A stretch of 21,590 nt of DNA from a virus. The DNA lies in IMG/VR virus record IMGVR_UViG_3300028666_000117, positions 1-21,590 of that record. One strand, written 5' to 3'. The notes under the pieces are model-generated. The model made no database searches and was not told the DNA's origin. It saw only the letters and a list, made by a program, of their open reading frames with translations. Within the stretch, counting starts at the first letter, position 1, and each line of letters opens with the position of its first letter. Shown piece by piece: positions 1 through 21,590 of the stretch. The position numbers were made by a program, and so were the translations under genes.

Positions 1-127
1 ACTGAATTGTCACCGACTTAACGCCCCCCGTTCATGCGTTCATTGCTACATACTCGTTTGGTAGGTCTGAGGAGCTTGTGGAATGTCGTAGAGGCGTTTA
101 TATTGGACGCCGAGGTAACGGAAGGCA
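1..127. repeat. Left copy of 127-bp perfect inverted terminal repeat
   Basis: Base by base, positions 1-127 are the exact reverse complement of 21464-21590. Identity stops at 128, where the left side reads G and the mirrored right side reads T. The repeat holds a C6 run at 24-29 in an otherwise AT-rich sequence. Read on the minus strand it contains the last 26 codons and the stop of the large terminase gene. The length equals k=127, a common final k-mer in de Bruijn assembly, so this may be a graph overlap and not a true telomere. A genuine repeat could extend beyond the contig ends. Confidence 0.97.
46..127 (-). pseudogene. C-terminal remnant of large terminase inside the left inverted repeat
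   Basis: Because the left repeat copies the right end in reverse, its minus strand encodes the last 26 residues of TerL, with the stop at 46-48. The ATPase centre and all three nuclease aspartates are missing, so it cannot work alone. It is either a by-product of an assembly overlap or a duplicated gene end left by a real inverted repeat. It is not an independent gene. Confidence 0.6.
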
Positions 128-134
128 GAAGAGA

Positions 135-350
135 ATGAGTTTAACCCCAGCGCAAGATCAGATTGAATTACGAAAGAAAAAAGAAGACGTTGAGTTATGC
201 GGAAAGAATCGTGGCCCACATGATTACATTCCTATTCAGTGGAGTACGACGGGAAATGTAAAAGTGGTAACGCGTTTATTCTGTCGTGTATGTTTCTGTA
301 ATGTAGCGATAAGTAATTTGATTGATAACTATCCTGAAGTTAAGATTTGA
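135..350 (+). CDS. Small Cys/His-rich phage protein, possible zinc-binding
   Basis: A 71-residue protein starts at the ATG at 135, just after a purine-rich AGAAGAGA ribosome binding site. An in-frame ATG at 78 lies inside the inverted repeat and is a poor choice. The N-terminus is charged (a run of Lys and Glu around residues 13-20). Cys22, His29 and the pair Cys50/Cys53, with Cys55 beside it, could hold a zinc ion in a ribbon-like fold. The central W36 and the segment VTRLFCRVC resemble small phage zinc-finger proteins as I remember them, but no specific function is known to me. Its end overlaps the convergent lysozyme-like gene by 11 bp. Its ribosome binding site begins right at the repeat boundary, so the gene itself is intact. 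Confidence 0.6.
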   Translation: MSLTPAQDQIELRKKKEDVELCGKNRGPHDYIPIQWSTTGNVKVVTRLFCRVCFCNVAISNLIDNYPEVKI

Positions 351-813
351 ATGCTAAAAATTTCTGAACGGACAGGTCATGAGTGGCCGCTCCTAGTGAA
401 GTGTTATAGTGAGCTTTGTAAAAATTCCATAGCGCATCAGTTTCAGTCGTATTCGGCAAAGCCTCAGATACCCGCGCATAATGCAACCGGCACATTGCTG
501 TCGCAAATCGAAGATCATAAACAAGACGTCCCTCATTTGGTATCCGATTACAGTTAAAGTTAGTCGTCATTAGCAACATTAGTTTATGGTTATTATTAAT
601 ATAGTTTTGCCACAGATCGTTATAGGTTGCTGGTTCCATCTGATATATGCCGAGCGCTGGGCCATTTAGTTGTTTTAAATACGTACCACCGTTTGATTCG
701 GTAGCGCATGTAAAAATCATTAACTCAACTGCGACATCAGACAGCATCATTAAATCAGTAAGTGCTGGCTTCACGATTAGCTCTCTGAGTTGCGCACAAT
801 TCATCATGGACAT
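340..813 (-). CDS. Lysozyme/transglycosylase-like protein, putative endolysin
   Basis: This 157-residue protein is the only clear gene on the minus strand. Residues 35-60 contain TES-x-GG followed by a GPALGIYQMEP segment, which resembles the ES-x-GG ... GALGLMQ signature of SLT/lysozyme-fold muramidases. Glu39 is the candidate catalytic acid. Later segments (around YDLRFATAMCRLHYARV and WNFYKAHYNT) resemble small phage-encoded proteins of this kind. The likely role is cleavage of peptidoglycan glycan strands, for host lysis or for local wall opening. No signal peptide or membrane anchor is evident, so a holin would be needed for release, and none is seen. The ATG at 813 has an AGGA at 819-822 with a 5-nt spacer. 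ATGs at 807 and 804 are alternatives. It is divergent from the small terminase gene, sharing the 814-870 gap. Confidence 0.7.
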   Translation of the reverse strand: MSMMNCAQLRELIVKPALTDLMMLSDVAVELMIFTCATESNGGTYLKQLNGPALGIYQMEPATYNDLWQNYINNNHKLMLLMTTNFNCNRIPNEGRLVYDLRFATAMCRLHYARVSEALPNTTETDALWNFYKAHYNTSLGAATHDLSVQKFLAFKS

Positions 814-821
814 TGCAATCC

Positions 822-830
822 TGGTATAAT
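822..830 (+). promoter_or_regulatory. Extended -10 promoter for the packaging/virion operon
   Basis: TGGTATAAT matches the bacterial sigma-70 extended -10 consensus (TGnTATAAT) exactly. No good -35 hexamer lies 16-18 bp upstream, but extended -10 promoters can do without one. It sits in the divergent gap about 40 bp before the small terminase start, the natural place for a promoter reading the long plus-strand gene run. This suggests use of the host polymerase; I saw no clear phage-polymerase promoter series in the window. Confidence 0.45.
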
Positions 831-842
831 AGTTTATTATTA

Positions 843-854
843 ATACAATTGTAT
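843..854. promoter_or_regulatory. 12-bp palindrome, possible operator
   Basis: ATACAATTGTAT is a perfect palindrome located just downstream of the extended -10 box and just upstream of the small terminase ribosome binding site. A protein dimer bound here would overlap the initially transcribed region and could block both divergent transcripts. The window encodes no obvious repressor, and AT-rich palindromes of this length do occur by chance, so the role is inferred from position only. Confidence 0.3.
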
Positions 855-870
855 CAGGAATATGATAAAC

Positions 871-1473
871 ATGTCACGAACTGCTCAAGATATTTACTTA
901 CAGATAAAAGCAGGAAAGACGAAATACATTGAAGAAGTACACTGTCCAAAGTTATTAGAGGTCATGTGTTCGTCGGGAAGAATTACTGACTTTTGCGCTC
1001 AAATATTAATCAGCGATACCACTTTTTATACATGGTGTAGAGAACATGAGCTACTGAGAGAAATATATGCAGTAAGCAAGATATTTGCCAGGGAGCTATG
1101 GGAGAAGGAAGGCGAGGAGTTAAAAACTAAGACGTGTATGCCTGGCGTTATAGATCATGAGTTTGATCATTGGCGCATGATAGGTTGGTCTCGTTTTGGC
1201 ATTAGTAAGAATTCTCGCATCAAATTAAACCTCGACCCTAACGGCAATCCTAGTCAGCATTATAGCCAACTGTTAAAGCAAGCATCCGAAGGTGAGTTTA
1301 CTGCTGCTGAGATAAAGCAGTTGATGGAAGCGGTTAATGTAGGCTTAAGCACGCATCAGGTTATTGAGTTACAAAAAGAGATAGACCAGCTAAGATTAGA
1401 TTTAGCGGTCATGGCGGATAATGCTAATGGCAACAATTCAAGCACAAATAAGGGAATTGCGCAAAAGGATTAA
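871..1473 (+). CDS. Terminase small subunit
   Basis: A protein of about 200 residues. Residues 38-56 form a helix-turn-helix of the pattern ITDFCAQ-x-LIS-x-TTFYTW, followed by helical residues containing ARELWEKEGEEL; this is how many phage small terminases begin. The C-terminus is helical, with a coiled-coil-like stretch around 155-180, suitable for ring formation. Its role would be to recognise viral DNA and regulate the TerL motor. The ATG at 871 is preferred because AGGAA at 856-860 lies about 10 nt upstream; the in-frame ATG at 862 leaves only about 2 nt. It is the first gene of the plus-strand virion run, directly before the portal region. TerL is almost 19 kb away. The 3' end overlaps a 44-residue ORF in another frame. 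Confidence 0.75.
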   Translation: MSRTAQDIYLQIKAGKTKYIEEVHCPKLLEVMCSSGRITDFCAQILISDTTFYTWCREHELLREIYAVSKIFARELWEKEGEELKTKTCMPGVIDHEFDHWRMIGWSRFGISKNSRIKLNLDPNGNPSQHYSQLLKQASEGEFTAAEIKQLMEAVNVGLSTHQVIELQKEIDQLRLDLAVMADNANGNNSSTNKGIAQKD

Positions 1474-1561: not shown

Positions 1562-1572
1562 GGAGAGAAAGC

Positions 1573-1902: not shown

Positions 1903-1904
1903 GC

Positions 1905-3554
1905 ATGGATACAACACAAGGAATGCCGCCGGTGCCTATGCCTGGCAATTCATTATTGGAAGTTTTACGGAAACGCTATAACGCTGCAAAGTATGTCGCT
2001 GATTTGTGGATTCCAATCATGCAGGCGTCATTCTTTTATTGTGTGCCATTTAGGAATAGATTTTATCTTCCTGGCAAAGAGTTTCAAGGTACGATTCAAA
2101 ACACGAGAGTCTACGATACAACTGCTGTCGATGGTGTTTCGACATTCGTATCAAAGCTTCATGACACGATGACACCGCCGCAAGTTCAGTGGGGTTTTCT
2201 AGAAGTTGATAACTCAATGGTTGATGATGATGAAAACCCTGAGAATATTAAGTTACTTGAAACCGCTCAGATGGTATTGAATAAATATATGCGTCGTCTT
2301 TTCTCATATATTCACGCATCAAACTTCGATGTAGTTATTAACGAATGTTATTATGATTTGAGCATTGGCACAGCGGCGCTTGTCATTAATCAGCATACAG
2401 ATGAGAATCCTTTTCTCTGCACATCTATCCCAATGGATAAACTTGCTATTGAGGAAGCTGTAAATGGAAACATTGAATCGTGGTATCGCACTTGGCAGAA
2501 TCTAAAAATAGTTGAGTTACATACACGCTGGCCTGGCATTGTACTTAGTGCAAATCTATTGCAAATGATATCGGCTGATAATGATGCTGTCATCAGAAAT
2601 GTCTATGAAGGTGTTGCATATTTTTGTAACCAGCCGAAGAAATACTGTTATGCGGTTTGGGCGGACAATGATTTATTATTAGCGCAATGGATAGATTCAC
2701 CTCCTGGTATCATCTGGCGTTGGAAGAAGTGCAACAATGAAACATGGGGTCGTGGTCCAGTAATGGAAGCATTACCATCCATCATCAGTTTAAACGAGAT
2801 GGCACGTGTTGAGCTTGCATCTGCTAACTTAAATACTTTCAGACCTTACATGGGATTCAGTGATGCTGTATTTAATCCTCATACTTTCCGGCTTGAGCCT
2901 TTTACTATTATACCTATCGCCCCCATTGGCTCTAATGGACAAGTGCCACTCATACCTCTCCCAAATAGCGCTGACCCTAATTTTGCTCAGCTTACTATTG
3001 CTGATTTGCGCATGCAGATACTCAAGCTATTGTTCGCCGAACAACCTCAAGATTCAAAAGGCGTTCAGCCACAAACTGCTTACGAACTCGGATTAAAACA
3101 GCAAACACTTGCCGAGAAAGTGGGGCCACTATTTAGCCGAGTGATTCAAGAATTCTCATGGCCTGTTATTAAGCGATTTGCTTATATTTTAAATAACATG
3201 GGACTGTTGTTATATCCTGAAGTGGGCGGCGTTCCCATTAAGTTTAAATACAAGTCACCACTTGCATTAGCGAAAGGTAAAGCTGATGTTGAGCGCTTAG
3301 TTCAATTCGTTCAAACTATGCAGGGTATCATGGGGCCAGAGGCGACTCAGATTTATATTAACCCTAAAACAACGCCTTATATGCTGGCTGAGTTGTTGCA
3401 AGTTGATGAGAGATTCTTGAATAAGCCAGGCGAGATTGAGAAAGTCATGCAAGCAGTTCAAGATCAGCATAGCCAGCAGCAAGTTCAGGCACAGCAAGGT
3501 CAAATGCAAAATGGCGAGCCGCCACAATCACCCGTTCAAATGCCACAACAATAA
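1905..3554 (+). CDS. Portal protein (T7 gp8-like head-tail connector)
   Basis: A 549-residue protein, close to the roughly 535 residues of T7 gp8. It forms the dodecameric ring through which DNA enters and leaves the head. Family-like features are the N-terminal aromatic helix region (residues 20-60), the segment with VDGVSTFVSKLHDTMTPP around 75-95, the central WGRGPVMEALPSI stretch near 285 and the helical QPQTAYELGLKQQTLAEKVGP stem/crown region around 388-408. The last 40 or so residues are rich in Gln and Pro and probably disordered. The start at 1905 uses the AGGTGG site at 1893-1898. It sits between the pre-portal protein and the scaffold block, the standard order in T7-like phages. Confidence 0.9.
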   Translation: MDTTQGMPPVPMPGNSLLEVLRKRYNAAKYVADLWIPIMQASFFYCVPFRNRFYLPGKEFQGTIQNTRVYDTTAVDGVSTFVSKLHDTMTPPQVQWGFLEVDNSMVDDDENPENIKLLETAQMVLNKYMRRLFSYIHASNFDVVINECYYDLSIGTAALVINQHTDENPFLCTSIPMDKLAIEEAVNGNIESWYRTWQNLKIVELHTRWPGIVLSANLLQMISADNDAVIRNVYEGVAYFCNQPKKYCYAVWADNDLLLAQWIDSPPGIIWRWKKCNNETWGRGPVMEALPSIISLNEMARVELASANLNTFRPYMGFSDAVFNPHTFRLEPFTIIPIAPIGSNGQVPLIPLPNSADPNFAQLTIADLRMQILKLLFAEQPQDSKGVQPQTAYELGLKQQTLAEKVGPLFSRVIQEFSWPVIKRFAYILNNMGLLLYPEVGGVPIKFKYKSPLALAKGKADVERLVQFVQTMQGIMGPEATQIYINPKTTPYMLAELLQVDERFLNKPGEIEKVMQAVQDQHSQQQVQAQQGQMQNGEPPQSPVQMPQQ

Positions 3555-3563
3555 GAGGTAACA

Positions 3564-3884
3564 ATGGATTCAGTTGAAAATAACCCGTTTTTGCAGCAAG
3601 AAGATTATTGGAAAGGCTATCAAGAAAGTATTGATAAACTTAAAAATAATCCTGAAGTTATTATGTTTGATAAGCTTTGCTATGAAGTTTTTGAAGCCTC
3701 AGAGATGGGTAAGAAGTTTCTTGAGTTTGCTAAAGATCGCTTTCTCATTCATTCACAAGTATCGCGTGGAAATGAAACATACCCTACTGACTGTTTGTGG
3801 CAGGAAGGTTTCCGTGATGCTTATAGAATGATATTGCAAAGTGTTATGTCGCATCAGCAACGCATAGCGGCGGGAGCGAAATAA
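3564..3884 (+). CDS. Conserved podovirus protein between portal and scaffold, function unknown
   Basis: A 106-residue, mostly helical, soluble protein. It starts 10 bp after the portal with an AAGAGG ribosome binding site. Notable features are the N-terminal acidic part, the central GKKFLEFAKDRFLI helix and the C-terminal W-QEGFRDAYRMI ... SHQQRI stretch. I recall similar proteins in this slot in other podoviruses without an assigned role. There is no membrane segment or known catalytic motif. Tight packing between portal and scaffold (1 bp to the next start) suggests a part in head assembly. A second reading frame at 3574-3831 within it is a shadow. Confidence 0.7.
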   Translation: MDSVENNPFLQQEDYWKGYQESIDKLKNNPEVIMFDKLCYEVFEASEMGKKFLEFAKDRFLIHSQVSRGNETYPTDCLWQEGFRDAYRMILQSVMSHQQRIAAGAK

Positions 3885-3885
3885 T

Positions 3886-4560
3886 ATGACTGAGACTATT
3901 GTGGATAATCCTACTTGGTTTATTGATGACGGTGTTCCTGGTGTTGGCGCTCGTCCGACTTGGCTTCCTGATAAATACAAGACTGTCGCAGATTTAGCCA
4001 AGAGCAATGTTGAGCTTGAGAGGAAACTTGGTGCAACACCTGAAGAGTATGATTTTAGCAAATCGAGATATATTGACCCAGACTATGTTCCATTCCAAGA
4101 GTTGAAGCAACTCGCAAAAGACAAGCGTGTGCCTAAAGAAGTCATGGATAAGATGCTTGATTCCGTCGATAAGTACATGGATGAATTTAGCACTGACTAT
4201 AACGAGGAATATAAAAAGTTAGGTGATAATGCTAGCGATAGGCTAACAACACTTGATAACTGGGCGAAGGCAAATTTATCTAAAACATCCTATGAAGCAA
4301 TAACATCTAACATGCGCAATGCGGATTCAATTAAAGCACTGGAAGAACTGAGAGGGAAAATGATGTCTAATACGCCAACGGTACCAAACGGCAACAATGA
4401 AGCAGTCAATAATAGCGCAACAATAGAAGATATTAAGTTAGAGTTATCTGAGAATTTGGGCAAATATAAAACAGATATGGCTTATAGGAAAGATATATCA
4501 TCTCGTCTCGAAGTGGCTGCAAAAAATACACCTGGCTTTGTTGACAAGGTGGGTGCTTAG
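3886..4560 (+). CDS. Capsid scaffolding protein
   Basis: A 224-residue, highly charged, helical protein directly upstream of the capsid gene, the usual place for a scaffold. The N-terminus contains WLPDKYKTVADLAKSNVELERKLG, resembling the [FY]K-[ST]-V-x-DLAKS-Y-x-ELEKKLG pattern of T7-like scaffold/assembly proteins. The middle (residues 60-150) is helical. A Pro/Asn-rich linker at about 165-180 leads to a C-terminal helix ending YRKDISSRLEVAAKNTPG, where scaffolds usually bind the coat protein. It would guide procapsid assembly and leave before DNA packaging. A GGGAG ribosome binding site at 3872-3876 overlaps the end of the preceding gene. No protease motif is seen. Confidence 0.8.
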   Translation: MTETIVDNPTWFIDDGVPGVGARPTWLPDKYKTVADLAKSNVELERKLGATPEEYDFSKSRYIDPDYVPFQELKQLAKDKRVPKEVMDKMLDSVDKYMDEFSTDYNEEYKKLGDNASDRLTTLDNWAKANLSKTSYEAITSNMRNADSIKALEELRGKMMSNTPTVPNGNNEAVNNSATIEDIKLELSENLGKYKTDMAYRKDISSRLEVAAKNTPGFVDKVGA

Positions 4561-4708
4561 CTGCAACAATAATAGTCAATATTATGTTAATGCCAGTCTG
4601 AAAGGACAACTTTAACGCATTGACCTCGAAAGAGACAATCAAGAAGCATGAAGCCCTTAAATACGATGGTGAAAGAAATTTCATTCAATTATTTAGGAGT
4701 TTTATGCC
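4561..4708 (+). promoter_or_regulatory. 148-bp untranslated leader before the capsid gene, with a GAAA-tetraloop hairpin
   Basis: This is the longest non-coding stretch in the virion operon. At 4668-4685 the RNA can fold into a stem whose core is UGAAA / UUUCA (two further G-U pairs possible), closed by a GAAA tetraloop of the stable GNRA type. The hairpin ends about 9 nt before the AGGAG at 4695-4699 that serves the capsid start at 4709. A TTGACC at 4620-4625 resembles a -35 box, but no matching -10 follows at the right distance. I found no convincing terminator. A role in stabilising or initiating the capsid transcript is plausible but unproven. Confidence 0.35.
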
Positions 4709-5545
4709 ATGTCAACTTCCTTGACAGCAGTACAACAAATTGAGTTTGATGCACTTGTAAAAGCCGAATACCAATCCCTTGGTTTCTTATTGAGAGATAC
4801 AGTACGTGTGCGCCGTGATGTCATTGGTGCGACTGTATCTTTCCGTAAGGTTAATCAAATCCAAGCAGTCCCAACAGGCTATCTGCAAACTGTTGTGATT
4901 CAAGATCCTGGTTACACCCAATACTCGGCAATCTTGCAAAAATACACAGCGCCAACCGCTGTAGATTCTGTACAAGAATTAACAGTTAACTTTGATGCTA
5001 AGATGGAAAATGCGATGATTGTCGCAAACGCCCTTGGCCGTCGTTCAGATCAAATCATCATTAACTCGTTAGCCCTTTCTCCCGGACAAACGATCGTTGA
5101 TGGCGGTACGAACATGACGTATTCGAAGTACACACAAGCTATTCAATTCTTTGATAATAACGCCGTGCCATTGCCTGAAAGATTTGCTGCGATGTCTGCT
5201 AGCAACTTCCAGTCATTACTACAAGCCGATCAATTCGTCTCAACCTTTTACACACAAAATCGTGTGTTAGATAAAGGCTTTGTACGCGATTACCTTGGTA
5301 TTAACTTAATCGTTATACCTAACATGGTCGAAGGCGGCCTGCCATTTGCTAGCACATCACCTAACATTCGCAAAACATTTTTCTGGCACAAGCAGTCAAC
5401 TGGTATGGGTATTGGCCACGACTTCCGCACCGAAATTAACTATCTCCCACGTGAAACATCTTGGTTGATTAACGGTATTTTCAGTGCTGGCGCAATCACA
5501 ATTGATAATCTCGGTATCATCGAAATCAATTGCGATGAAGGCTAA
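4709..5545 (+). CDS. Major capsid protein
   Basis: A 278-residue protein following the scaffold. It is shorter than T7 gp10A (345 residues) and appears to belong to a separate branch of HK97-fold coat proteins found in other podoviruses. Visible features are a short N-terminal helix, a beta-rich region with TVSFRKVNQIQAVPTGYLQ, the acidic motif TVNFDAKMENAMIVANALGRRSDQ around residues 92-115 (spine-helix-like), and a C-terminal part with FFWHKQSTGMGIGHDFRTEINYLPR near 225-250 followed by a beta-strand-rich end. It carries fewer AT-rich codons than its neighbours, as highly expressed genes often do. The start is fixed by AGGAG 9 nt upstream. No protease accompanies it and there is no long N-terminal delta domain, so maturation without cleavage is likely. 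Confidence 0.88.
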   Translation: MSTSLTAVQQIEFDALVKAEYQSLGFLLRDTVRVRRDVIGATVSFRKVNQIQAVPTGYLQTVVIQDPGYTQYSAILQKYTAPTAVDSVQELTVNFDAKMENAMIVANALGRRSDQIIINSLALSPGQTIVDGGTNMTYSKYTQAIQFFDNNAVPLPERFAAMSASNFQSLLQADQFVSTFYTQNRVLDKGFVRDYLGINLIVIPNMVEGGLPFASTSPNIRKTFFWHKQSTGMGIGHDFRTEINYLPRETSWLINGIFSAGAITIDNLGIIEINCDEG

Positions 5546-5575
5546 ACTTTACTAATAAATTGGAGAATTTTAATC

Positions 5576-6463
5576 ATGACTTTTACAATTGCAAACTGGG
5601 GTTGCCAACAACCCTCGCTCAATGCAGGTCAAGAAACAATCACACCATTTGGCGGCTCACCAACCGTTGAAAACACATGTAATGTTTTCACGTATGTAAG
5701 CCCTAATGATGCGGCCGCAACAATTATTGCAGCTAACTATTTCCTACCAATGTATGCCGATTTATGTGTTGGCGACATTATATGGGGAAGTGGCACAGAT
5801 GCTTCTTTCGCAGTTCAAGTAACAGCGGTAAGTTCAACATCTGTCACCGTTGCAAGTATGGGTTTAACGACATCAATCGGTACAGCAAATATCGTTAACA
5901 ATGCTGTGACATATGCAAAGCTTCAGCAATCTGTAGGGTCTAACACTCTGTTAGGAAACCCAACGGGTGGAGCTGCAAACTTTGAAGAAGTCACACTTGG
6001 TAATGGTTTGGACTTTGCAAGTACAGCATTAGAGTTAAAACCTTCCTACTTAAATGTTGTAGAGGTAAGTTTAACTGCTTCTCAGTTTAATGGTATGTAT
6101 GCAACACCTGTATCAGTTATTGCTGCTCCTGGCGCTAACAAAGCAATTGTCGTTAACCATGCCGTATTGAACATGACGTATGGTTCTGCTCAATTTGTCG
6201 GTGGTGGTGTGGTTGGCCTTCAATATGGAAGCACTGCGCACTTAGCTGGCGCCGCTGCTTCTGCTACTGAAGCCGCAACAGACTTTACTGGCGCTTCTGC
6301 AAGCACGTTATTCCGACTTGGCGCTGGTGTATCAACAGGTGCGGCTGTAACTTCTGCTGCAAATGCTGCGGTATACATCTCTAATGCAACAGGCGCATTT
6401 ACAACCGGTGACTCTACATTCAAGCTTTGGATTTGGTATGAAGTAATACCAACCAATTCTTAA
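5576..6463 (+). CDS. Head-fibre or capsid decoration protein
   Basis: A 295-residue beta-rich protein, low in charge and rich in Ala, Gly, Thr and Val, directly after the coat gene. Residues 1-100 include a compact domain with FTYVSPNDAAATIIAANYF and LCVGDIIW. Residues 107-155 carry a fibre-type stretch (NNAVTYAKLQ ... LLGNPTGGAANFEEVTLGNGL), a pattern I know from phage fibres. The C-terminal part (about 165-295) is Ala/Gly-rich, with APGANKAIVVNHAVLNMTYG, and may form a knob. Position after the coat gene suggests a spike or fibre on the head surface instead of a tail fibre. GGAG lies upstream of the start. A tail-associated role cannot be ruled out from sequence alone. Confidence 0.65.
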   Translation: MTFTIANWGCQQPSLNAGQETITPFGGSPTVENTCNVFTYVSPNDAAATIIAANYFLPMYADLCVGDIIWGSGTDASFAVQVTAVSSTSVTVASMGLTTSIGTANIVNNAVTYAKLQQSVGSNTLLGNPTGGAANFEEVTLGNGLDFASTALELKPSYLNVVEVSLTASQFNGMYATPVSVIAAPGANKAIVVNHAVLNMTYGSAQFVGGGVVGLQYGSTAHLAGAAASATEAATDFTGASASTLFRLGAGVSTGAAVTSAANAAVYISNATGAFTTGDSTFKLWIWYEVIPTNS

Positions 6464-6487
6464 TACTAGAGTAAGAGGAATTACTGA

Positions 6488-7093
6488 ATGGCTTATACTA
6501 AGACAAGCATTATATCGTTAGCGGTGCAACTTCTTGGTCATAAGCCAATCATCTCTTTGGATGACGCCGACGATCTAGTTATCTCTGCTGAACAGGCATA
6601 TGATATTTTATTGCCAAGCATCTTAGGTACGGGTAATTGGCGTTTTTCAATCCAAATATCTCAACTAACAGCGTCAACCGAAGTTCCACCATTACAAACT
6701 AACTGGCAGAATATTTACCTATTACCGCCTGGGTATCTAAAAAATATCAGAATCATTCCTCAAAATTATAATTATGAAATTTATGCTAATAGTCAGATAT
6801 GGTGTAATTGGGGTGTTCAATCGCCTGTATTCATGGAATATGCTTTTTTACCGGATACAGCGCAGTTAACAGCTACCTTTGTTAATTATTTTATTTATGA
6901 AATAGCTGCTATTCTTGCATTGTCAAATGCGCAAAAACCAGATTACTTTGCAGCTTTAACAGCGCAGAAAAATATTCAATGGGCTATTGCTGCGGCAGCA
7001 GACGCGCAGAATAGACCGCAGTTTGTTCAGTGGGAAATTCCAATTCTTACGAAACGAAACATTACTGGTATCATTGGCCCACAAATAGGTTAA
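6488..7093 (+). CDS. Tail tube protein A (T7 gp11-like, gatekeeper)
   Basis: A 201-residue protein, very close to T7 gp11 (196 residues). Family features are the N-terminal helix SIISLAVQLLGHKPI, the segment AEQAYDILLPSILGTGNWRFS around residues 33-55, the LPPGYLKNIRI turn near 80, and the C-terminal Ala-rich helices with YEIAAILALSNAQKPDYF. Twelve copies would form the ring that joins the portal to the nozzle. The gene lies directly before tail tube B, the canonical order. The start is preceded by AGAGGAA. Confidence 0.85.
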   Translation: MAYTKTSIISLAVQLLGHKPIISLDDADDLVISAEQAYDILLPSILGTGNWRFSIQISQLTASTEVPPLQTNWQNIYLLPPGYLKNIRIIPQNYNYEIYANSQIWCNWGVQSPVFMEYAFLPDTAQLTATFVNYFIYEIAAILALSNAQKPDYFAALTAQKNIQWAIAAAADAQNRPQFVQWEIPILTKRNITGIIGPQIG

Positions 7094-7106
7094 GAGAGAT
7101 GTCTAA

Positions 7107-9656
7107 ATGGCATATGAATTATGGTCACAAGATGTATTCTCTCGCGGAGAATTATCGCCGTTTATGTACGCTCGCGCGACCGTCAATGAGTATAGTAACG
7201 GTTTAAAGCAAGCTCAGAATGTTTTAACTTATCCTATAGGTGCCGCAGGAAAACGATTCGGCACGCTTTTTCAAAGTATCTTAAATTTCACGAATCCTCA
7301 AGGAATGTACTTTCAGACATTCCAATATCTAAATCAGTGTGTATATCAATTGGTATTTTATAATTCTAATATTGATATCTACCTTGAGGGTATTTTGATT
7401 GCGAACGTTTCAACTAGCTTGAACGATACGCAAGTATTTAATATAAGCAGTACAGTATTAGGCGTTATATTTAGAGTAGCTGGAATTGGATTTAAACCCT
7501 ATGATTTGACGCGATCAGCATCTTCACCTAATGGGATTACAACAACGTCGCCTACAACTATTAGTTTAACGTCGGCAATTACGGCTGGCCTGGTTGTGCC
7601 AATTACTTTTACTGCTGTAACCTCACTACCTATCACTAGCCCGCAAGTTATTTTAGGGGTGACATACTTTGCTAAAAACATTAATACTTCAGATATAGAA
7701 GTTTATGCAACAGCTCATGACGCCAAGTTTGGATTAAATAAATTTGGAATTGTTACGGGTGGCGTTTCAGCATCTGTTGTTTTTGAAAATACTTGGACAT
7801 TCGCCCATTCAGTTTTTACGAATGTCCCTGTTTATGATTTTAACGGAACTATAACTTCTTATGATGCTTTAACATTCACGCCAAGCGCCGTAGTAGGCTC
7901 AGGCGTCACGATTACAGTTAGCGGGTCTGGTTATGCCCTCCTAGATTCATCATACGTAGGTGGCGCATTTATTGGCGCTGGCGGAACATCTCGCATCACG
8001 GCCGTAGCAAGTGCAACTTCCTTCACGGTGTCTGTTGAGATGCCATTCGATTCCACTGACCCAATTCAAGGAAGCCTTACTCTTTTAGCTGAGCCAGCGT
8101 GGAGTGATAAGCGTGGCTGGCCGCAAGTATGTTCCAGCTATCAGAACAGAGCATTATTCGCAAACACCCCAAGTCTGCCAAATGGATTCTATGCTAGCGT
8201 TATTAATGATTACCCAAACTTTGGCGATTTGACGAGCGATGATGATGATGCGATTAGTTGGTATCCAACATCGAATAATGTAAATTTCATCAAGTTTATT
8301 GTTCCTTATCGCAGCATCACGGTGCATACAAACACGGGTATTTACTCAAGCCCACTCTCTGATTTGGTGGCAATTACACCTAGTAATTTTACATTGCAAT
8401 TACAAGATTCAACACCTGCCGACGTCTTATATCCAGTTGCTATTGATAATCAGGTTTTAGTGTTATCTGGAAATGATGCGCATCAAATGCTGTGGGATGG
8501 TATTAATAACGCTTATACATCCAACATCGTATCAATCATTAATGAACAAACAATTCGTGACCCTGTTGATGAAACGCCATTTTTAGCACTTCATCGCGCT
8601 GGTAGTAGATTTGTTTTTATTATTAATGCAAATGGATCGATGGCTATATACCAAACATTAATATCTGAGAATGTTTCAGGTTTTACAAGTGCAATAATGG
8701 AACAATCCTATGGCAATGCTGGCTTCTTACAGTCAGCAAGCAGCTCAGATGGTCGAGCATGGTTTGTTGTTCAGAGACAAATTGCGGAAGCCGCTTCGCC
8801 ATTAACTATCAGCGCAATCTCTCCAGGCGCTACAGCAATGGAAGCGACAAGCGCAGCTTTCTCAACAACTCAACCGACAGCAGTTATATTTACAACATCA
8901 GGCTCACTACCGACAAGCTCTCCACAAATTACAACAGAACAATATTACTGGGTCGTTGGAATAGTCGGCGATGCTTTCAATGTGTTCGTCTTGCAAGAAG
9001 ACGCGGCCGCATGGATAGCTGATGGATACCCAGCCAATCCTGAGACGGCAATATTTTGGGCGACACTTGGCTCTGATAGTCAGGTAGTGCCGTGGACACT
9101 TAACACGATATTTACGCTTGAAGAATTAACGCATGATACATTCTTAGATTGCGCTGTTTATTACAATGGCACGCCAGTAAACACTGTTGATACTGGAATA
9201 TTATTTAATGCGCAAAATGTTAAGATGGTCGGCGATGGTTTTGGATTTGATGGTATCGGCGGAAACAATGGCGTCGCATTTGTGGCGCATGGTGTTTACA
9301 CAGATGTTTCTGTCGCTTATATCGGCTTTCCAATTAATACCATTATGGAGCCAATGCCGCTCAGCATGTCTAACGGTTCATCTCCTAAAAATACAACACT
9401 AACAAAGCCTAAGCATATTCGCACAATAAGATTTATGTTTAATAATACAATTGGCGGAACAATTAATGGCGTTCCAATTTCACTCTTGCCGTTTAGTCTA
9501 GCCAATATTGGAGAGCCGCCATTTCCTGCACGCGGAGTTTTTGAGTTAAGTGTCATGAAAGGGTGGGATGATTTTAATAATCCAAGTTATGTTATAGAGC
9601 ATAGTGAGCCATTTAATATTCAGCTTTTAGGTGTATTTTATTCAGTAGATATTTAG
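7107..9656 (+). CDS. Tail tube protein B (T7 gp12-like nozzle)
   Basis: An 849-residue protein, slightly longer than T7 gp12 (794). The N-terminus contains FSRGELSPFMYARATVNEY and GAAGKRFGT, matching the G-E-L-S-P ... Y-x-x-G-L-x-x-x-x-N ... G-x-x-x-R-x-G-T start of this family. Around residues 335-350, PAWSDKRGWPQVCSSYQNRA is another hallmark. The rest is beta-rich, as expected for the nozzle hexamer that carries the fibres. Two similar small beta modules, at about 152-230 and 567-650, look like inserted copies of one domain and account for the extra length. An AGAGAG site precedes the ATG at 7107; an earlier ATG at 7099 is in another frame. The 3' end contains the ribosome binding site of the next gene. 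Confidence 0.88.
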   Translation: MAYELWSQDVFSRGELSPFMYARATVNEYSNGLKQAQNVLTYPIGAAGKRFGTLFQSILNFTNPQGMYFQTFQYLNQCVYQLVFYNSNIDIYLEGILIANVSTSLNDTQVFNISSTVLGVIFRVAGIGFKPYDLTRSASSPNGITTTSPTTISLTSAITAGLVVPITFTAVTSLPITSPQVILGVTYFAKNINTSDIEVYATAHDAKFGLNKFGIVTGGVSASVVFENTWTFAHSVFTNVPVYDFNGTITSYDALTFTPSAVVGSGVTITVSGSGYALLDSSYVGGAFIGAGGTSRITAVASATSFTVSVEMPFDSTDPIQGSLTLLAEPAWSDKRGWPQVCSSYQNRALFANTPSLPNGFYASVINDYPNFGDLTSDDDDAISWYPTSNNVNFIKFIVPYRSITVHTNTGIYSSPLSDLVAITPSNFTLQLQDSTPADVLYPVAIDNQVLVLSGNDAHQMLWDGINNAYTSNIVSIINEQTIRDPVDETPFLALHRAGSRFVFIINANGSMAIYQTLISENVSGFTSAIMEQSYGNAGFLQSASSSDGRAWFVVQRQIAEAASPLTISAISPGATAMEATSAAFSTTQPTAVIFTTSGSLPTSSPQITTEQYYWVVGIVGDAFNVFVLQEDAAAWIADGYPANPETAIFWATLGSDSQVVPWTLNTIFTLEELTHDTFLDCAVYYNGTPVNTVDTGILFNAQNVKMVGDGFGFDGIGGNNGVAFVAHGVYTDVSVAYIGFPINTIMEPMPLSMSNGSSPKNTTLTKPKHIRTIRFMFNNTIGGTINGVPISLLPFSLANIGEPPFPARGVFELSVMKGWDDFNNPSYVIEHSEPFNIQLLGVFYSVDI

Positions 9657-9665
9657 GAGAAAAAA

Positions 9666-10166
9666 ATGCCATTTGCATTCTTACTTGCCATGCAAGCCGC
9701 TGGAATGATAACCGATTATATGGGTACGCAGAATCAACAGCGTATAAGCGATTACGGCGCTCAACTACAGCAAGCAGGCATTCAAGCCAATATAGAACAA
9801 ACAAGACTTGAGACTGAAGACGAAAGCCTGCAAGCGCTTAAAGCGTTAAGGCAGAATCTTGGCACGCAGTCAGCTGTATTTGCAGCGCGAGGAACAAATC
9901 CAGGCGCAGGAAGTGCAGTTGTGTTTATGCAAGAAAACCTAAATAATTTTAATGCTGATGAAAGAACCCGCCGCATGAACCTGCTAGGTAAAGAGAATCA
10001 ATTACGCGGTGGCGCATCTATAGCTAGTCTTAATCAGCAAAGTGAAAACTCTAAAATGTGGCAGAGTTTCTCACAACGCACAGCGAACAGATTCCCCTCC
10101 TCATTGCCAGGATGGAAACAAGGCGTTTCAGATTTAAAAGAAGGTTTTGGGCTAACATCAATTTGA
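9666..10166 (+). CDS. Internal virion protein, gp14-like (small ejectosome subunit)
   Basis: A 166-residue protein, the first of three internal virion genes. The N-terminus is hydrophobic (PFAFLLAMQAAGMITDYM), which suits outer-membrane insertion after ejection. A long helix follows, with the segment LRQNLGTQSAVFAARGTNPGAGSA at about residues 60-85, typical of this family in T7-like phages, and then F-x-x-DE-x-x-RRMN. T7 gp14 (196 residues) forms the outer-membrane pore of the trans-envelope channel. AGGAG overlaps the end of the tail tube B gene, showing tight coupling. Confidence 0.78.
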   Translation: MPFAFLLAMQAAGMITDYMGTQNQQRISDYGAQLQQAGIQANIEQTRLETEDESLQALKALRQNLGTQSAVFAARGTNPGAGSAVVFMQENLNNFNADERTRRMNLLGKENQLRGGASIASLNQQSENSKMWQSFSQRTANRFPSSLPGWKQGVSDLKEGFGLTSI

Positions 10167-10177
10167 GGTAATGGTTA

Positions 10178-12418: not shown

Positions 12419-12421
12419 GTC

Positions 12422-15400
12422 ATGGAAGATACGACAACAAATGATCAAGATGTTAATCTAGCGAATGTTAATATCGACCCCAAGAAAGACGCTGCTCCAG
12501 CGGATAATGTAAATACACCACCATCTATATCAATGGATGTACCATTTTCACCATTTGATCACACCACCACAGAGGCACCAGCAATAGAGTCATTATCTGC
12601 TTTTGGATATAACCCTGTTAGTCCACCAAAAGAAGATATTGGCTTTATGGAAGGTGCCACCGCTAATTGGGAAGATAAAAACGATACATGGAAAGCGGCG
12701 CATGGTAGCTGGGATAGAGCGCAAGATTATATCGATACCTATAAAGACGCCAATTTTAATCCATTACAATTTCAAGACAAATTCATCAATGTAAGAAAAG
12801 AATACCTTAGTTATCTGATGTCGTCAGAAAATGAAAAACAAATGGATTTCAGGTTAAAACGTATTTATCACGAGCAAAATATAGACGACACAGTAAAGAG
12901 TAGCTCGGGTATGCAATGGTTGATTGGTGGGGGTGCTGGTCTTGCGACTGACCTTATCAATTACATTCCCTTCATCGGTGAAGTAAAATACGCAAGCATG
13001 GGAAAGACAGCGTTAAGAAGTCTTGCTAGATCGGCGCCAGGTGCAATGGCTTACGGTGTTAGCGCTTCACTTGGAGATAATATTGATAAAATTAATGGCA
13101 ACCTCCAGGATTTTTTAAAGGACGCTGTCATTGGGTCAACATTTGCCACGGCATTGTTTGGGCTTTCACCTGTCGCATCGTTAGCAGCTGATAAACTTCA
13201 ATTGTGGGATTTACGATCATATGTAGGTGATGCGGTTCGCGGGATAGGTTACAAATTAAAAGTTGGTGAAAAGGGTGAGGTGCAAGGATTGCACGCCTAT
13301 GACATGACCACGGACGGTTCTTTATCTGCTGATAAAGTAAAACTTGCTCAAGAAAAAGCTGATTCTGCTTTCCATAAGAATGGATTTTTCAAGGTTCCTT
13401 ATATTGGAACAGCGGCAGAAAAGCTCATGAGTAATAAGTTCTTTGGTTCGCCAACACTTTCCATGCTTCTCTCTCCCTATCAAACCGTGCGATCAGTAAT
13501 TGATTTAGCTTACGATCACGGCATCACTACAAAGGGATTAGCTGAAGGTAAGGCTAAACCAATTACTTTCTTTACGCAGATGCAAAAAACTGTCGCGCAT
13601 ATTCGGCAAGAACAAAATTTGTTTAATGCGCTACACATGGAGCGCAATGGTGTAAAATCAGATAACTATGTTGCGCAAAGTTTAACGAAAGCTGGCATGT
13701 ATCTAAAACAAAAGTCATTAGAGAAAATACAATCTGAAATTGGCGATAGACCTTATATATCACAAGAACAATTCTCTGATGAAGTTCAACATGTCATGTA
13801 TTCTGGTGAGCCACACGAGAATGCTGCCGTTAATAACGCAGCATCAATGTTCAAAACTTCAATGGATATATATTACAAAGATTTTAGAACTGCTTTTAAT
13901 CTACCTGAAGACTGGTTGCCGCCAATTACCGCAAAACAATATCTAATGCGCGTATATGATACAAACTTCATGAATAATAATCAGAGTTTATGGACTAATG
14001 TCATATCGAATGAATTGCGCAATCAAGATAATAAGATTATTGAATACTCACAACCAATTAATTCTTTATCAAAACAGATTAAAGATTTTGAATCAGCCCA
14101 TACTGATGCGGTTCGGGAGCTGGGTGCAAGTGAAGAGTTAGATGAATCATTTAACCCACAAGCAACCATTCCGCACCTCACAAATGATGTTGGTTTAGGA
14201 TTAAAGACATATCATATACCAGAACAGCAAAGACTTGGCTCAGATCAAGTTAAGGTTGGCGTATCTATTCCAGCTATGCAATTGCGTTCAATGAAGACTA
14301 AATTAAAAGCAATGAAGGAATCATTGCAAAATGAAATACGTTCTAATCCTGATATGCACTTGTTAGCAGATGACTGGCACGCACTATCAGCAGATGAAGC
14401 GAATGAGTTAAAAGTTTTATTAAAACCTATCAATGATCTTAAAAAATCCGTTAGCGAGCAACAAGAATTAATCGCTGATTTGAAGGCGCAAAAAAATAAG
14501 CAGCTTGCTACTGCAAAGAATAAATCCACAGTTGTGAAAGCTACTCCTAAAGCTAAGGAATTTGTAGCAAGTGAAGAACAGCTTGTTAAAGAGCAAAAGA
14601 AGCTCGATGAATTAAAATATAAGTTATCTGAATCTCAAGTTAACTTGGATATGCGCGCTCATAAAGGCGAAATTAATCAGCGCCTATATAAAACAAATGG
14701 CACAGTAATTAATTTTAAAGACCCTAATGATAGGTTGAAATTTAGAGATACATATCATCAACAGAAAGGTTACACGGTTGAAGAAGAAGAAGCGCATAGT
14801 TTGCGTGAAGAACATGCTACAGCCTATTATCACACCATCATGAATCAGACCGCTGAAGATACAATCAATCAGATCATAGGTAAATACACGGGAAATAATA
14901 TGGAGAATCACATCAAGGCTAGAACGCTTATGATTCCCGATGAAATACTTTATAAGTATAATTTCATGACCAAAGATTTATTGTCTAAGGTTGCTAACTA
15001 TAAAATGTGGTTAGCTCGTAGAACACATCTAAAGAATACTTATAAAGATGTTTCAATTGATGGCGGGTTTGAACCGTTGATTCAAGAGATGAGTGACGAT
15101 TTTAATGCTAAGCACAAATTGTTAAATGATGATAAGGCTAAATTTGAAGCCAAACTTAAAAAAGAAAATCTCTCTCTTGATGAAAAGAAGAAAGCTCAAA
15201 AAGGGTTAGATCAGGCTGAAGTTAAGATCAAAAAGAATCGAAAAGATTTTAATCGCGGCAAAGGCCAAGTTCAATTCGTTTATGAAAAGTTAATGGGTAT
15301 CAGCAAATTAAGCGCTAATGCTAGGGCATTTGTTGCTGGCGCTAAAGCATTCAATGTGTTTGCTAACCTTGGATTTTTACCCGCCACAATGATCACCGAT

Positions 15401-16546
15401 TTATCGGCAAATGGTTTGAAGCAGGGATTAATTCCATTCATTCAAAATGGTATATATCCTACCATTCAAAGCTTGGGTGGCTTGCTAAAAACTCATGATA
15501 GTGAATCATTGCGCAATACTGCGGGAGCATTAAACCTCGCCTTGCATCATATTGGTAATGCAACATCATCAAGACAATTAGACTTGTCTACAAATCCATA
15601 TCTTAATCTAGGTAAGTTGCCAACCTTCTTTGATAAGACCGCACACCTTGCGTCGAACATTAACTTAACCACGACAATTGATAACTATCTTCAGCGAGTA
15701 ACATCTGCTGTCGCCCAGTCTAATGTCATTCGTCATATGGTAGCCTTCTCTGAAGGCAAGCTAACCAAAGGCGATAGAATGTGGTTGAATCGTTATGGTC
15801 TTGACCCTGAAAGAGATGCTGAGGCAATTTTAAAAGCTTTTAAGCTGGACGGTGGTGGGACAAATAAGCTCGGCGGATATCAAAGCAATTTCTGGCATTG
15901 GCAGGATTTAGAGTCAGCCAACAAAGTGGCTGATGCCGTTTTCCGCTCAACACATGACACAATTATCTCAGCTAACTCATTCGACTCACCCATTTGGCTA
16001 GATGAAAATAGTGTGCTTAATATTATGGCACCTATTATTCGGGGTTTTAAAGGTTGGGCATTTGCATCTCTTAATCGCTATCTAATCCCCGCGCTACAAC
16101 AACCTGATGCTCATACGCTCATGGGATTTGCTTTGATGTCGGCATCTGCTGCTCTGGTAAGCCCTAGCAGAAGGATGGCAAGAGGCGAGTCACCTTATCG
16201 CGCTGACCAAACGCCAGCTCAGATAGCGGCTGAGATATTACTTGACTCACCCGAGTTCGCATGGGTGTCTGAATCTTTGCAAGATGCCAATTTGTTAACT
16301 CACGGTACTCTTTTGGGCAGCTTAAAGAATGACAAATACTACGACAGGACGTTAATGGGAATCCTTGGCCCAACAGGTTCAAATGCGAATAAATTGACTA
16401 ATTTTGTCACAGCTATGGCAACAGGAAATATGAACCAACAAGATGTTCAAGGAATGGCTAGTATGATTCCAATTCTCAATTCATTATATGGTTATCAGGC
16501 GTCAAAGGATGTAATTGATCACTTTGTAACGCAGCAACGCAGATAA
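12422..16546 (+). CDS. Giant internal virion protein, gp16-like DNA-ejection protein
   Basis: A 1374-residue protein, the largest in the window and close to T7 gp16 (1318). It should line the head core and be ejected to form the inner-membrane end of the DNA channel. The first 60 residues are Asp/Pro-rich and disordered. Residues 163-250 are hydrophobic and Gly/Ala-rich (MQWLIGGGAGLATDLINYIPFIG), possibly membrane-active. Coiled-coil-like stretches occur near 670-705, 717-747 and 890-945. Another hydrophobic region is at about 968-1000. The conserved-looking C-terminal part (1198-1374) includes IIRGFKGWAFASLNRYLIPAL and the ESPYRADQTPAQIAAEILLDSPE segment seen in related podovirus proteins. 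The N-terminal lytic transglycosylase signature (ES-x-GG ... GLMQ) of T7 gp16 is not seen here. Start 3 bp after the preceding stop. Confidence 0.8.
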   Translation: MEDTTTNDQDVNLANVNIDPKKDAAPADNVNTPPSISMDVPFSPFDHTTTEAPAIESLSAFGYNPVSPPKEDIGFMEGATANWEDKNDTWKAAHGSWDRAQDYIDTYKDANFNPLQFQDKFINVRKEYLSYLMSSENEKQMDFRLKRIYHEQNIDDTVKSSSGMQWLIGGGAGLATDLINYIPFIGEVKYASMGKTALRSLARSAPGAMAYGVSASLGDNIDKINGNLQDFLKDAVIGSTFATALFGLSPVASLAADKLQLWDLRSYVGDAVRGIGYKLKVGEKGEVQGLHAYDMTTDGSLSADKVKLAQEKADSAFHKNGFFKVPYIGTAAEKLMSNKFFGSPTLSMLLSPYQTVRSVIDLAYDHGITTKGLAEGKAKPITFFTQMQKTVAHIRQEQNLFNALHMERNGVKSDNYVAQSLTKAGMYLKQKSLEKIQSEIGDRPYISQEQFSDEVQHVMYSGEPHENAAVNNAASMFKTSMDIYYKDFRTAFNLPEDWLPPITAKQYLMRVYDTNFMNNNQSLWTNVISNELRNQDNKIIEYSQPINSLSKQIKDFESAHTDAVRELGASEELDESFNPQATIPHLTNDVGLGLKTYHIPEQQRLGSDQVKVGVSIPAMQLRSMKTKLKAMKESLQNEIRSNPDMHLLADDWHALSADEANELKVLLKPINDLKKSVSEQQELIADLKAQKNKQLATAKNKSTVVKATPKAKEFVASEEQLVKEQKKLDELKYKLSESQVNLDMRAHKGEINQRLYKTNGTVINFKDPNDRLKFRDTYHQQKGYTVEEEEAHSLREEHATAYYHTIMNQTAEDTINQIIGKYTGNNMENHIKARTLMIPDEILYKYNFMTKDLLSKVANYKMWLARRTHLKNTYKDVSIDGGFEPLIQEMSDDFNAKHKLLNDDKAKFEAKLKKENLSLDEKKKAQKGLDQAEVKIKKNRKDFNRGKGQVQFVYEKLMGISKLSANARAFVAGAKAFNVFANLGFLPATMITDLSANGLKQGLIPFIQNGIYPTIQSLGGLLKTHDSESLRNTAGALNLALHHIGNATSSRQLDLSTNPYLNLGKLPTFFDKTAHLASNINLTTTIDNYLQRVTSAVAQSNVIRHMVAFSEGKLTKGDRMWLNRYGLDPERDAEAILKAFKLDGGGTNKLGGYQSNFWHWQDLESANKVADAVFRSTHDTIISANSFDSPIWLDENSVLNIMAPIIRGFKGWAFASLNRYLIPALQQPDAHTLMGFALMSASAALVSPSRRMARGESPYRADQTPAQIAAEILLDSPEFAWVSESLQDANLLTHGTLLGSLKNDKYYDRTLMGILGPTGSNANKLTNFVTAMATGNMNQQDVQGMASMIPILNSLYGYQASKDVIDHFVTQQRR

Positions 16547-19122: not shown

Positions 19123-19128
19123 TATAAT
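19123..19128 (+). promoter_or_regulatory. Possible -10 box before the small-protein and TerL block
   Basis: A perfect TATAAT lies in the 43-bp gap between tail fibre 3 and the next gene. No -35 box or upstream TG is present at the right spacing, and AT-rich DNA makes such matches common. Its position at the only gap before the final block of genes, and its likeness to the TATAAT at 825-830, are the only support. Confidence 0.25.
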
Positions 19129-19152
19129 AAATAATCATAAGGGAGATATTTC

Positions 19153-19359: not shown

Positions 19360-19361
19360 CC

Positions 19362-19824: not shown

Positions 19825-19842
19825 CATTAAGAGGAAATAATC

Positions 19843-20076
19843 ATGGCAGCAGCAAAACCTACAAAGCCAACGGGTAAAGGCGCAAACACAGACTCTAAAA
19901 CATCCACAGCTACAAAGACCGCCACATCAACAAAAACATCTACCGAAGCTTACACGCAAGGGAATGTTACCGTTACAGGTGGCGCAGGTGATGGAGATAC
20001 GACTGTTTCAATTGGAAAGATGCCTGACCACGAAAAAGAACGCAAATATCACGAGAAGCAGAAATATGGACGCTAA
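19843..20076 (+). CDS. Low-complexity Lys/Thr-rich small protein
   Basis: A 77-residue protein. Residues 1-40 are almost only Ala, Lys, Thr, Ser, Gly and Pro, with repeats of the T-x-T/KT type, and are probably disordered and basic. Residues 41-57 (GNVTVTGGAGDGDTTVSIG) may form a short beta segment. The charged end (MPDHEKERKYHEKQKYGR) shares a KYG-[KR] tail with the previous protein and resembles the RKYPMPD motif of the 19153-19359 product. The ribosome binding site AGAGGAAA is good. No homologue is known to me; a nucleic-acid-binding or virion-internal role is only a guess. The next gene overlaps its end by 11 bp. Confidence 0.55.
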   Translation: MAAAKPTKPTGKGANTDSKTSTATKTATSTKTSTEAYTQGNVTVTGGAGDGDTTVSIGKMPDHEKERKYHEKQKYGR

Positions 20077-20230
20077 TAATCTTCCAGCTCAAAGAGAGCA
20101 ATTTGAGATTGATAAATATGGTCGTCGCCTTCATGAAGAGGCGGCGGCATATCCTCACGTCTACTATAAGCATTCAATCGAACCTGCTTATGGACAGTTT
20201 AGCGTGCCAATCAATGAACCGAATCAATGA
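20066..20230 (+). CDS. 54-residue protein directly upstream of TerL, function unknown
   Basis: A short gene starting at the ATG at 20066 within the end of the previous gene, with GAGAAG about 10 nt upstream. Further upstream ATGs in the frame (19964) would overlap the previous gene fully and give an unlikely sequence. The product is charged and aromatic (FEIDKYGRRLHEEAAAYPHVYYKH, shown here in part of its length), without membrane segments. It again contains KYGR. It stops 4 bp before TerL, and TerL has only a weak ribosome binding site of its own, so its translation may be coupled to this gene. Confidence 0.5.
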   Translation: MDANNLPAQREQFEIDKYGRRLHEEAAAYPHVYYKHSIEPAYGQFSVPINEPNQ

Positions 20231-20234
20231 CTAA

Positions 20235-21545
20235 ATGTATATTAGAATACCTAACATATCCCCTTATCCCCATCAAGCGCGTATGTTTAAGGCTATGGTG
20301 GATGACAAAAACGTGTGCGCGGTTATTCATCGCCGAGCCGGTAAAGACATCTTTTCACTACAGGCGTGGTTATTGCGGGGTCTCAGAAGAGTCGGGACAC
20401 ACGTATATCTGTTCCCTTTGCATAAGCAAGCCCGCTCGGTTATTTGGCAAGGTCTGGACTTTGACGGAAAACCGTTCATGGATGCAATACCTGACTGCCT
20501 TGTGGCGAAAAAGAACGAAGCGCGAATGGAGATTGACCTATTTAATGGTAGCAAACTTGTGCTTGCTGGCTCAAATAATTATGACGGACTCATGGGTTCT
20601 AATCCTGTTACTATCATTTATTCTGAATTTAGCCTACATAATCCTTTAGCTCGTCAGTATCTAAATCCAATTATAGTCCAGAACCAAGGAAAAGAGATTC
20701 TCCAATACACACCTCGAGGAATGAATCATGGGTACGAAGTATACCAACAAGTTAAAGACCTCCCAGATTATCACGTTGAGCATCTCTCTGTTGAGCAAAC
20801 ATTCAAACATGACGGCATCACACCAATCATCTCTAGGGCAGATATCCAAAGAGCAAAAGACCTTGGAATGTCTGATGAACTCATACGACAAGAATTCTAT
20901 GTCGATTTCGAAGTGGGAAACCTTGGCGCCTACTATACGAGAGAAATTGGAGACATGGAGCGTGAGGGACGTATTACTATTATTAAGCCAGACCCTCGAT
21001 TAAAAGTACATACAATATGGGATTTAGGCGGCACAGATGCAACAGCAGGATTAATGTTTCAAGTCACAGGGCAATACATCCATGTCCTATATCTTCTACA
21101 CGACACTGGAAAAGGATTTAAACATTACCTCGATGAAGCTGAACTCGTACGACAGCGCATGGGTTTAACATGGGGTAATCACTACGGACCTCATGATATA
21201 GATCAAAAGCATCAAGGATTTGAACACTGCGAATCTCGTCTCATGCAAGCTCGCAAATATGGCTGGCACTTTCATATGGTCCCCAAGGTTTCTTTTGAAG
21301 ACGGAATTGAATCATGCCGCTATATGTTTCCACGCCTAAGAATAGATAAGGTTAATTGCTCATTAGCCATAAGAGCATTAAGAGAATACCAACGAGACTA
21401 CGATGAAGTGAAAGCTCGCTTTGAACCGAAGCCATTAGACAACTGGGCGCAACACATAGCTGATGCCTTCCGTTACCTCGGCGTCCAATATAAACGCCTC
21501 TACGACATTCCACAAGCTCCTCAGACCTACCAAACGAGTATGTAG
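20235..21545 (+). CDS. Terminase large subunit (packaging ATPase-nuclease)
   Basis: A 436-residue protein. It pumps viral DNA into the procapsid and cuts the concatemer. ATPase domain: Q-motif-like YPHQ at 11-14, Walker A variant HRRAGKD at 32-38, Walker B VTIIYSEF at 125-132 with Glu131 as catalytic residue, and motif III QYTPRGMNHG at 157-166. Nuclease domain: Asp263 and Asp268 in WDLGGTDAT, Asp321 in YGPHDID and Asp410 in HIADAFRY, giving the metal-binding acidic set. The protein is shorter than T7 gp19 (586) but full for this shorter subfamily. The start at 20235 follows the previous stop by 4 bp. Codons 411-436 and the stop lie in the right inverted repeat, so an inverted copy of the gene's end is at the left edge of the window. 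Confidence 0.92.
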   Translation: MYIRIPNISPYPHQARMFKAMVDDKNVCAVIHRRAGKDIFSLQAWLLRGLRRVGTHVYLFPLHKQARSVIWQGLDFDGKPFMDAIPDCLVAKKNEARMEIDLFNGSKLVLAGSNNYDGLMGSNPVTIIYSEFSLHNPLARQYLNPIIVQNQGKEILQYTPRGMNHGYEVYQQVKDLPDYHVEHLSVEQTFKHDGITPIISRADIQRAKDLGMSDELIRQEFYVDFEVGNLGAYYTREIGDMEREGRITIIKPDPRLKVHTIWDLGGTDATAGLMFQVTGQYIHVLYLLHDTGKGFKHYLDEAELVRQRMGLTWGNHYGPHDIDQKHQGFEHCESRLMQARKYGWHFHMVPKVSFEDGIESCRYMFPRLRIDKVNCSLAIRALREYQRDYDEVKARFEPKPLDNWAQHIADAFRYLGVQYKRLYDIPQAPQTYQTSM

Positions 21546-21590
21546 CAATGAACGCATGAACGGGGGGCGTTAAGTCGGTGACAATTCAGT
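21464..21590. repeat. Right copy of 127-bp perfect inverted terminal repeat
   Basis: Exact reverse complement of 1-127. It begins at the last base of the TerL Asp410 codon and includes the final 26 codons, the stop and 45 bp of non-coding sequence. That tail contains a tandem pair of ATGAACG 8-mers at 21548-21563, a G6 run at 21562-21567 and a short AACGC/GCGTT inverted pair at 21551-21571 without a T-run, so it is not a convincing terminator. T7-like phages normally have direct, not inverted, terminal repeats. Confidence 0.97.

Follow-up and report, generated by a model that had tools for sequence, protein, structure and literature searches.

Inverted repeats partition the genomes of herpesviruses and chloroplasts into unique arms. 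In HSV-1, the L and S arms are flanked by inverted repeats, and the packaging 'a' sequence is repeated and lies inverted at the joint. This description of the HSV-1 arms partly follows one account (PMC3147054), which describes double rolling-circle replication as recombinogenic. Double rolling-circle amplification via inverted copies has been proposed for the 2-micron plasmid and plastid DNA. No description of tailed phages with inverted-repeat isomers was found in the open-access literature, and an earlier one is possible. Podoviruses with a homologous terminase large subunit (TerL, ~31-36%) include Alteromonas ZP6, the Vibrio 1.138.O type, Pelagibacter HTVC010P and EXVC031P, and the uncultured ctVRi840, and the Pelagibacter and Vibrio types additionally share a homologous portal (~23-29%) and a similar virion gene order. 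Neither a large inverted repeat nor the motif described below is present in seven phage records with homologous TerL. The comparative analysis presented here indicates that the arrangement seen in the locus under study is an inverted-repeat-partitioned genome in tailed phages.

The window, i.e. the whole stretch of DNA that was analyzed, corresponds to a virus record 21,590 bases long and has the following features:

1..127, minus strand: the part of the left inverted-repeat copy that the contig contains; matches the right copy exactly, same layout in relatives
135..350, plus strand: small conserved ORF marking the structural arm's left boundary; present in 11 of 18 relatives, beside that boundary in every case
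340..813, minus strand: conserved antisense ORF of 157 aa, PHROG 3108 (PHROG match; conserved in relatives)
862..1473, plus strand: putative terminase small subunit (TerS), from position and size; conserved in relatives
1905..16546, plus strand: virion gene block (PHROGs matches)
1905-3554, plus strand: portal (PHROGs match)
4709-5545, plus strand: major capsid (PHROGs match)
6488-7093 and 7107-9656, plus strand: tail proteins (PHROGs matches)
12422-16546, plus strand: internal virion protein (PHROGs match)
20235..21545, plus strand: TerL, complete, 436 aa (tblastn and C-terminal alignment)
21464..21590, plus strand: right copy of the inverted repeat, made up of the TerL 3' end and 45 bases past the stop codon; in relatives, the inner edge of a longer repeat

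A comparison of the window's ends bore out the preliminary description in that bases 1-127 are the exact reverse complement of 21464-21590 (0 mismatches) and that identity breaks at base 128; beyond ~base 130 the ends agree at 2-3 of 10 bases, which is background. There is no direct terminal repeat in the window, and the next longest inverted pairs inside it (20-35 nt, 70-86%) are not comparable to the 127-bp pair. An exact search of IMG/VR with 41 bases of the repeat end yielded no match. TerL, which shows 31-36% identity by tblastn to records annotated as terminase large subunit, had been thought to be cut by the repeat, but it has a stop codon of its own within the right copy, and the alignment with its relatives extends through its C-terminal end. 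The inner edge of the repeat falls within TerL at ~codon 410, and positions 46-127 repeat, in antisense, the final 27 codons of TerL and its stop. The putative TerS at 862-1473 has no family match, and the 157-aa ORF sits antisense between the left-edge ORF and TerS in most relatives. Two neighboring genes, probably for tail fibers, share a near-identical N-terminal module (MxTNNMINTPEPFAL.SGGTGA; 17650-17714 versus 18195-18259, 78% at the DNA level), a sign that fiber genes may have been duplicated or exchanged.

A length of 127 is a usual assembler k (a common largest k), and a perfect pair of exactly this size could be a pure assembler artefact, in which a branching 127-mer or a chimeric join mimics a repeat without a real second copy. 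In support of a k-mer overlap, as had been proposed, a relative from another sample (G007) also presents a pair of exactly 127 bp, and pairs of 99 bp occur in four others (G012, G186, G189, G212); the window's apparent repeat length was almost certainly set by the assembler. Relatives were fetched from IMG/VR by TerL, portal and TerL-alignment searches, and comparing full contigs with themselves revealed inverted pairs at the arm edges. Close relatives repeatedly end at two places, before the small conserved ORF and after TerL, often at ~20-24 kb, and no such recurrent end points are seen in relatives with TerL below ~45% identity. Among 38 IMG/VR contigs with TerS and TerL, the window included, 28 contain an inverted pair flanking a structural arm of ~19-24 kb; the pair overlaps or adjoins TerL in 25 of the 38 and begins 0.3-1.4 kb beyond it in three counted among the 28 (G189, G198, G214). 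The ten contigs lacking a pair comprise four that end at or near a repeat edge (G008, G029, G185, G208), two that stop short of the left edge (G011, G014) and four to which neither applies (G190, G193, G209, G210).

An end-overlap artefact would be confined to contig ends, always be 100% identical and match k in length. The window's length does equal a usual k, but the relatives depart from this pattern. The pair lies in the interior of the contig in G004 (13412-13480 with 35129-35197) and likewise in G009, G015, G023, G024, G186, G188 and G204; the copies are not identical in G022 (174 bp at 97.7%), G186 (234 bp at 98.7%) and G192 (189 bp with a 3-bp indel); and two contigs from one sample (G032 and G035) carry the same 434 bp inverted, beside the structural start in one and beside TerL in the other. 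The edges are repeated across samples, with G029 corresponding to G024 13464-35269 and G208 to G204 8346-32405; both contigs stop no more than ~2 bp away from the repeat. Because of these interior, non-identical and recurrent copies, together with the 817-bp repeat of G204 and G205 described below, the repeat is real and longer than 127 bp, with whole copies in relatives spanning 434-1193 bp. The pure artefact is hence already refuted for the phage family, where the same pair recurs at the same genes in many samples, and is very improbable for the window.

The same evidence bears on the other reading of a perfect terminal inverted repeat, namely that the genome is linear and that 1 and 21590 are its telomere-like ends. 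The perfection of the repeat and the frequency with which relatives' contigs stop near the same place would agree with true termini, but longer relatives proceed past both copies into a second arm, and the window encodes a terminase and a portal and presents no sign of protein-primed replication genes. A phi29-type linear genome with terminal inverted repeats does not fit relatives that pass through the repeat into the second arm on either side, and true termini are extremely improbable. Of the two origins that the preliminary description had weighed, telomere or artefact, neither therefore holds for the repeat itself, whereas its caution that 127 bp is only a lower bound was justified by whole copies of ~490-1190 bp within longer contigs.

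The second arm is delimited in nine contigs by a second inverted pair flanking ~7-13 kb (G004, with 24 bp only, G009, G015, G024, G025, G033, G186, G196 and G204), and seven of them (all except G025 and G033) hold both pairs. Measured from the coordinates of both pairs within one contig, the stretch between the pairs' inner edges is 497 bp in G004, 984 in G009, 1170 in G015, 1193 in G024, 539 in G186, 487 in G196 and 817 in G204. The pairs mark the opposite edges of a single repeat of ~0.5-1.2 kb, and since this stretch is one full repeat, the map is circular or circularly permuted, running through the structural arm, the repeat, the small arm and the inverted repeat. Once the missing part of the second copy is added, genome sizes come to ~33.1 kb (G204), 34.1 (G186), 35.6 (G004) and 36.4 (G024). 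With a family genome of ~33-36 kb, the window represents ~60% of such a genome; the contig is incomplete, as had been suspected, and a 'complete' call would be wrong. Two unique arms, each between inverted copies, are thus found in the relatives, and the window holds one of them. We consider it likely that the window corresponds to the structural arm of a ~33-36 kb genome of podovirus type that is partitioned by inverted repeats, with arm flipping and a packaging motif in the repeat. Counting against this is that neither a small arm nor a full repeat was found for the window itself; the window's repeat is presumably as long as those of its relatives. Both edges of the structural arm would enter the same repeat, at which a de Bruijn assembler would halt, leaving one k-mer (127 bp) at each end. 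The plan is widespread in an uncultured family of short-tailed, podovirus-type phages.

The small arm encodes an exonuclease VIII-like nuclease, SSB and RusA, and in G204 also a thymidine kinase. A further conserved small-arm protein (PHROG 3657) is encoded close to the exonuclease and, judging by this position, is a putative single-strand annealing protein. Among the small-arm ORFs examined, none was recognized as encoding an integrase, invertase or DNA polymerase, and no recombinase was recognized among seven small-arm proteins scanned in G024 and G204. Imperfect palindromes of ~56-62 bp are also present in the small arm (G009 5380-5443, G015 7464-7519), and a putative tRNA-like sequence directly follows TerL in L013 (~1562-1640).

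According to our reading of gene directions, which in G009 and G011 depends on one or two marker genes, small-arm marker genes are opposed to the structural genes in G004, G009, G186, G189 and G205 and co-directed with them in G011, G015, G023, G024, G025, G033, G196, G198 and G204. Such mixed orientations would be the expected outcome of recombination between the copies. G204 and G205 are one strain assembled from different samples, with 100% identity over 10,810 bp in direct and 4,168 bp in inverted orientation. Their complete 817-bp repeat is identical and adjoins the same small-arm end in both, but on its other side the structural start follows in G204 and TerL in G205, which suggests that isomers may coexist in one population. 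These joins come from assemblies, and the repeat may exceed the read-pair span, leaving the assembler free to take either path; one of the two apparent isomers of this strain could then be a misjoin, which weighs against this reading. We nevertheless infer that the arms flip in the living phage. Homologous recombination between the copies would both keep them alike and flip one arm relative to the other, much as in HSV-1 or plastid DNA, and the phage's own exonuclease and SSB, with the putative annealing protein, would probably assist it.

The repeat copies themselves appear to evolve in concert, judging from few sites. Of the aligned repeat sites in the two copies of each of the related genomes G022 and G023, 99 are invariant across the four sequences, 6 are genome-specific (agreeing within a genome), 0 separate left from right copies and 3 show other patterns. 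Across species the stretch of the last 27 TerL codons shares only ~62-74% with that of the window, whereas copies within a genome are 97.7-100% identical. The edges of the repeat drift, from including no TerL (G189, G198, G214) to including ~the last 100 codons (G212). Concerted copies could also represent a fixed duplication, kept alike by occasional gene conversion and lacking both frequent flipping and a packaging role. The slight differences between copies in G022, G186 and G192 are compatible with this, as are one-strain isomers if these reflect assembler path choices, but both arm orientations are scattered through the family and occur in assemblies of one strain, and we regard a fixed duplication as distinctly unlikely.

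A motif of ~75 bp, in which TCCGGT-N7-AACTCTC-N12-CCAG or a close variant comes after a G-rich block, was identified in 26 contigs at no more than 3 mismatches and in G196 at 4, i.e. in every contig with a complete repeat copy. It is directed into the structural arm from both copies, and the window ends short of it. An exact pattern scan returned 16 IMG/VR stretches, each with genes of the window's phage family, and 7 places in prokaryote genomes, 4 of which are convincing in combining the G-rich block with the profile score; the other three (L114, L115, L118) lack the block and were taken as chance matches. The convincing loci belong to a Legionellaceae MAG, Legionella feeleii and two gammaproteobacterial MAGs, one of which was placed by genome search in the order of L. 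feeleii. All four lie beside satellite- or plasmid-like genes:

L112, 4456-4491: motif, with a primase-helicase and a weakly TerS-like protein
L113, 4915-4950: motif, with an AlpA regulator
L116, 225-260: motif, with a resolvase
L117, 617-652: motif, with an AlpA regulator and a weakly TerS-like protein

The genomes carrying these loci contain no relative of the window's TerL, and a search for proviruses in 143 genomes of the L. feeleii order returned no close TerL and one distant partial match. A possible connection with the Legionella element LME-1 found no support in the literature. The Legionellales loci look like satellites or plasmid-like elements, and they could constitute an unrecognized satellite group with the window's phage family as helpers. 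Among satellites of Gram-negative phages, the cos site of the helper can be present, in some cases even twice (PMC6092414). On the basis of this precedent and of the satellite-like loci, the motif is most likely a packaging site, and Legionellales are the probable hosts of the family.

As an RNA, the motif has no structure in RNAalifold (energy 0, column shuffles mean -0.02), which makes a DNA element more likely, and eight loci with the motif have no match in Rfam. Plasmid and phage record collections contain no real match. By eye, the motif of G192 and G204 resembles the lambda left end (CGGGTTTTCGCT...TCCGGT), a likeness that is not claimed because the lambda end scores below shuffles with the family profile. 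The same holds for the N15, HK97, P2 and D3 ends, the left 240 bases being scored in each of the five, and the motif was not classed as a lambda-type cos.

Packaging could start at either copy, proceed through the structural arm and the inverted copy, and stop once another copy oriented like the first is reached, which would give full-length genomes of two isomers. Alternatively, the repeat could serve mainly replication, through double rolling-circle amplification, with the motif as an origin or replication element instead of a packaging site. The architecture fits such a role, double rolling-circle replication is recombinogenic according to PMC3147054, and the small arm codes for recombination proteins, DNA polymerase being unrecognized in the ORFs examined. 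Packaging, however, fits better with a motif near TerL that also lies beside weakly TerS-like genes in two satellite-like loci, and a mainly replicative repeat seems rather unlikely to us. The fuller analogy with HSV, in which a packaging site within inverted repeats faces the structural arm from either side, virions are a mix of two isomers packaged from one copy or the other, and Legionellales satellites copy the site in order to be packaged, is put forward as a tentative possibility.

Contigs of this family that are called complete from their inverted ends contain one genome arm only, the other being likely binned separately or lost. The motif loci point to Legionellales as hosts, an order for which, to our knowledge, few phages have been described. 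If the proposed plan is true, recombination, replication and packaging would be tied to one repeat, whose purpose would be testable in a phage.

Among known systems, ZP6, 1.138.O, HTVC010P and ctVRi840 have TerL before the portal, whereas the window has it at the far end of the virion genes. As in phages Mu (G) and P1 (C), a segment of phage DNA lies between inverted repeats and takes two orientations; in Mu and P1, however, the segment is short, carries alternative tail fibers and is turned by a site-specific invertase, whereas here it comprises the whole structural gene set, and no invertase was recognized in the ORFs examined. Plastid DNA and the yeast 2-micron plasmid share with these phages a circular map, inverted repeats separating two arms, copies that evolve together and repeat edges that drift, but the phages are viruses with a terminase, in which no dedicated Flp-like recombinase was recognized among the ORFs examined. 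Compared with HSV-1, the phage genome is small (~35 kb), its repeat is below 2 kb and of one type, and a packaging role and a mixture of isomers are proposals; no homology is claimed. Like HSV-1, these phages have inverted copies on either side of two unique arms, arms joined in either relative orientation among their assemblies, and a conserved repeat element with a possible role in directing packaging. If the plan is true, they would constitute a small bacterial counterpart to herpesvirus genome isomerization.
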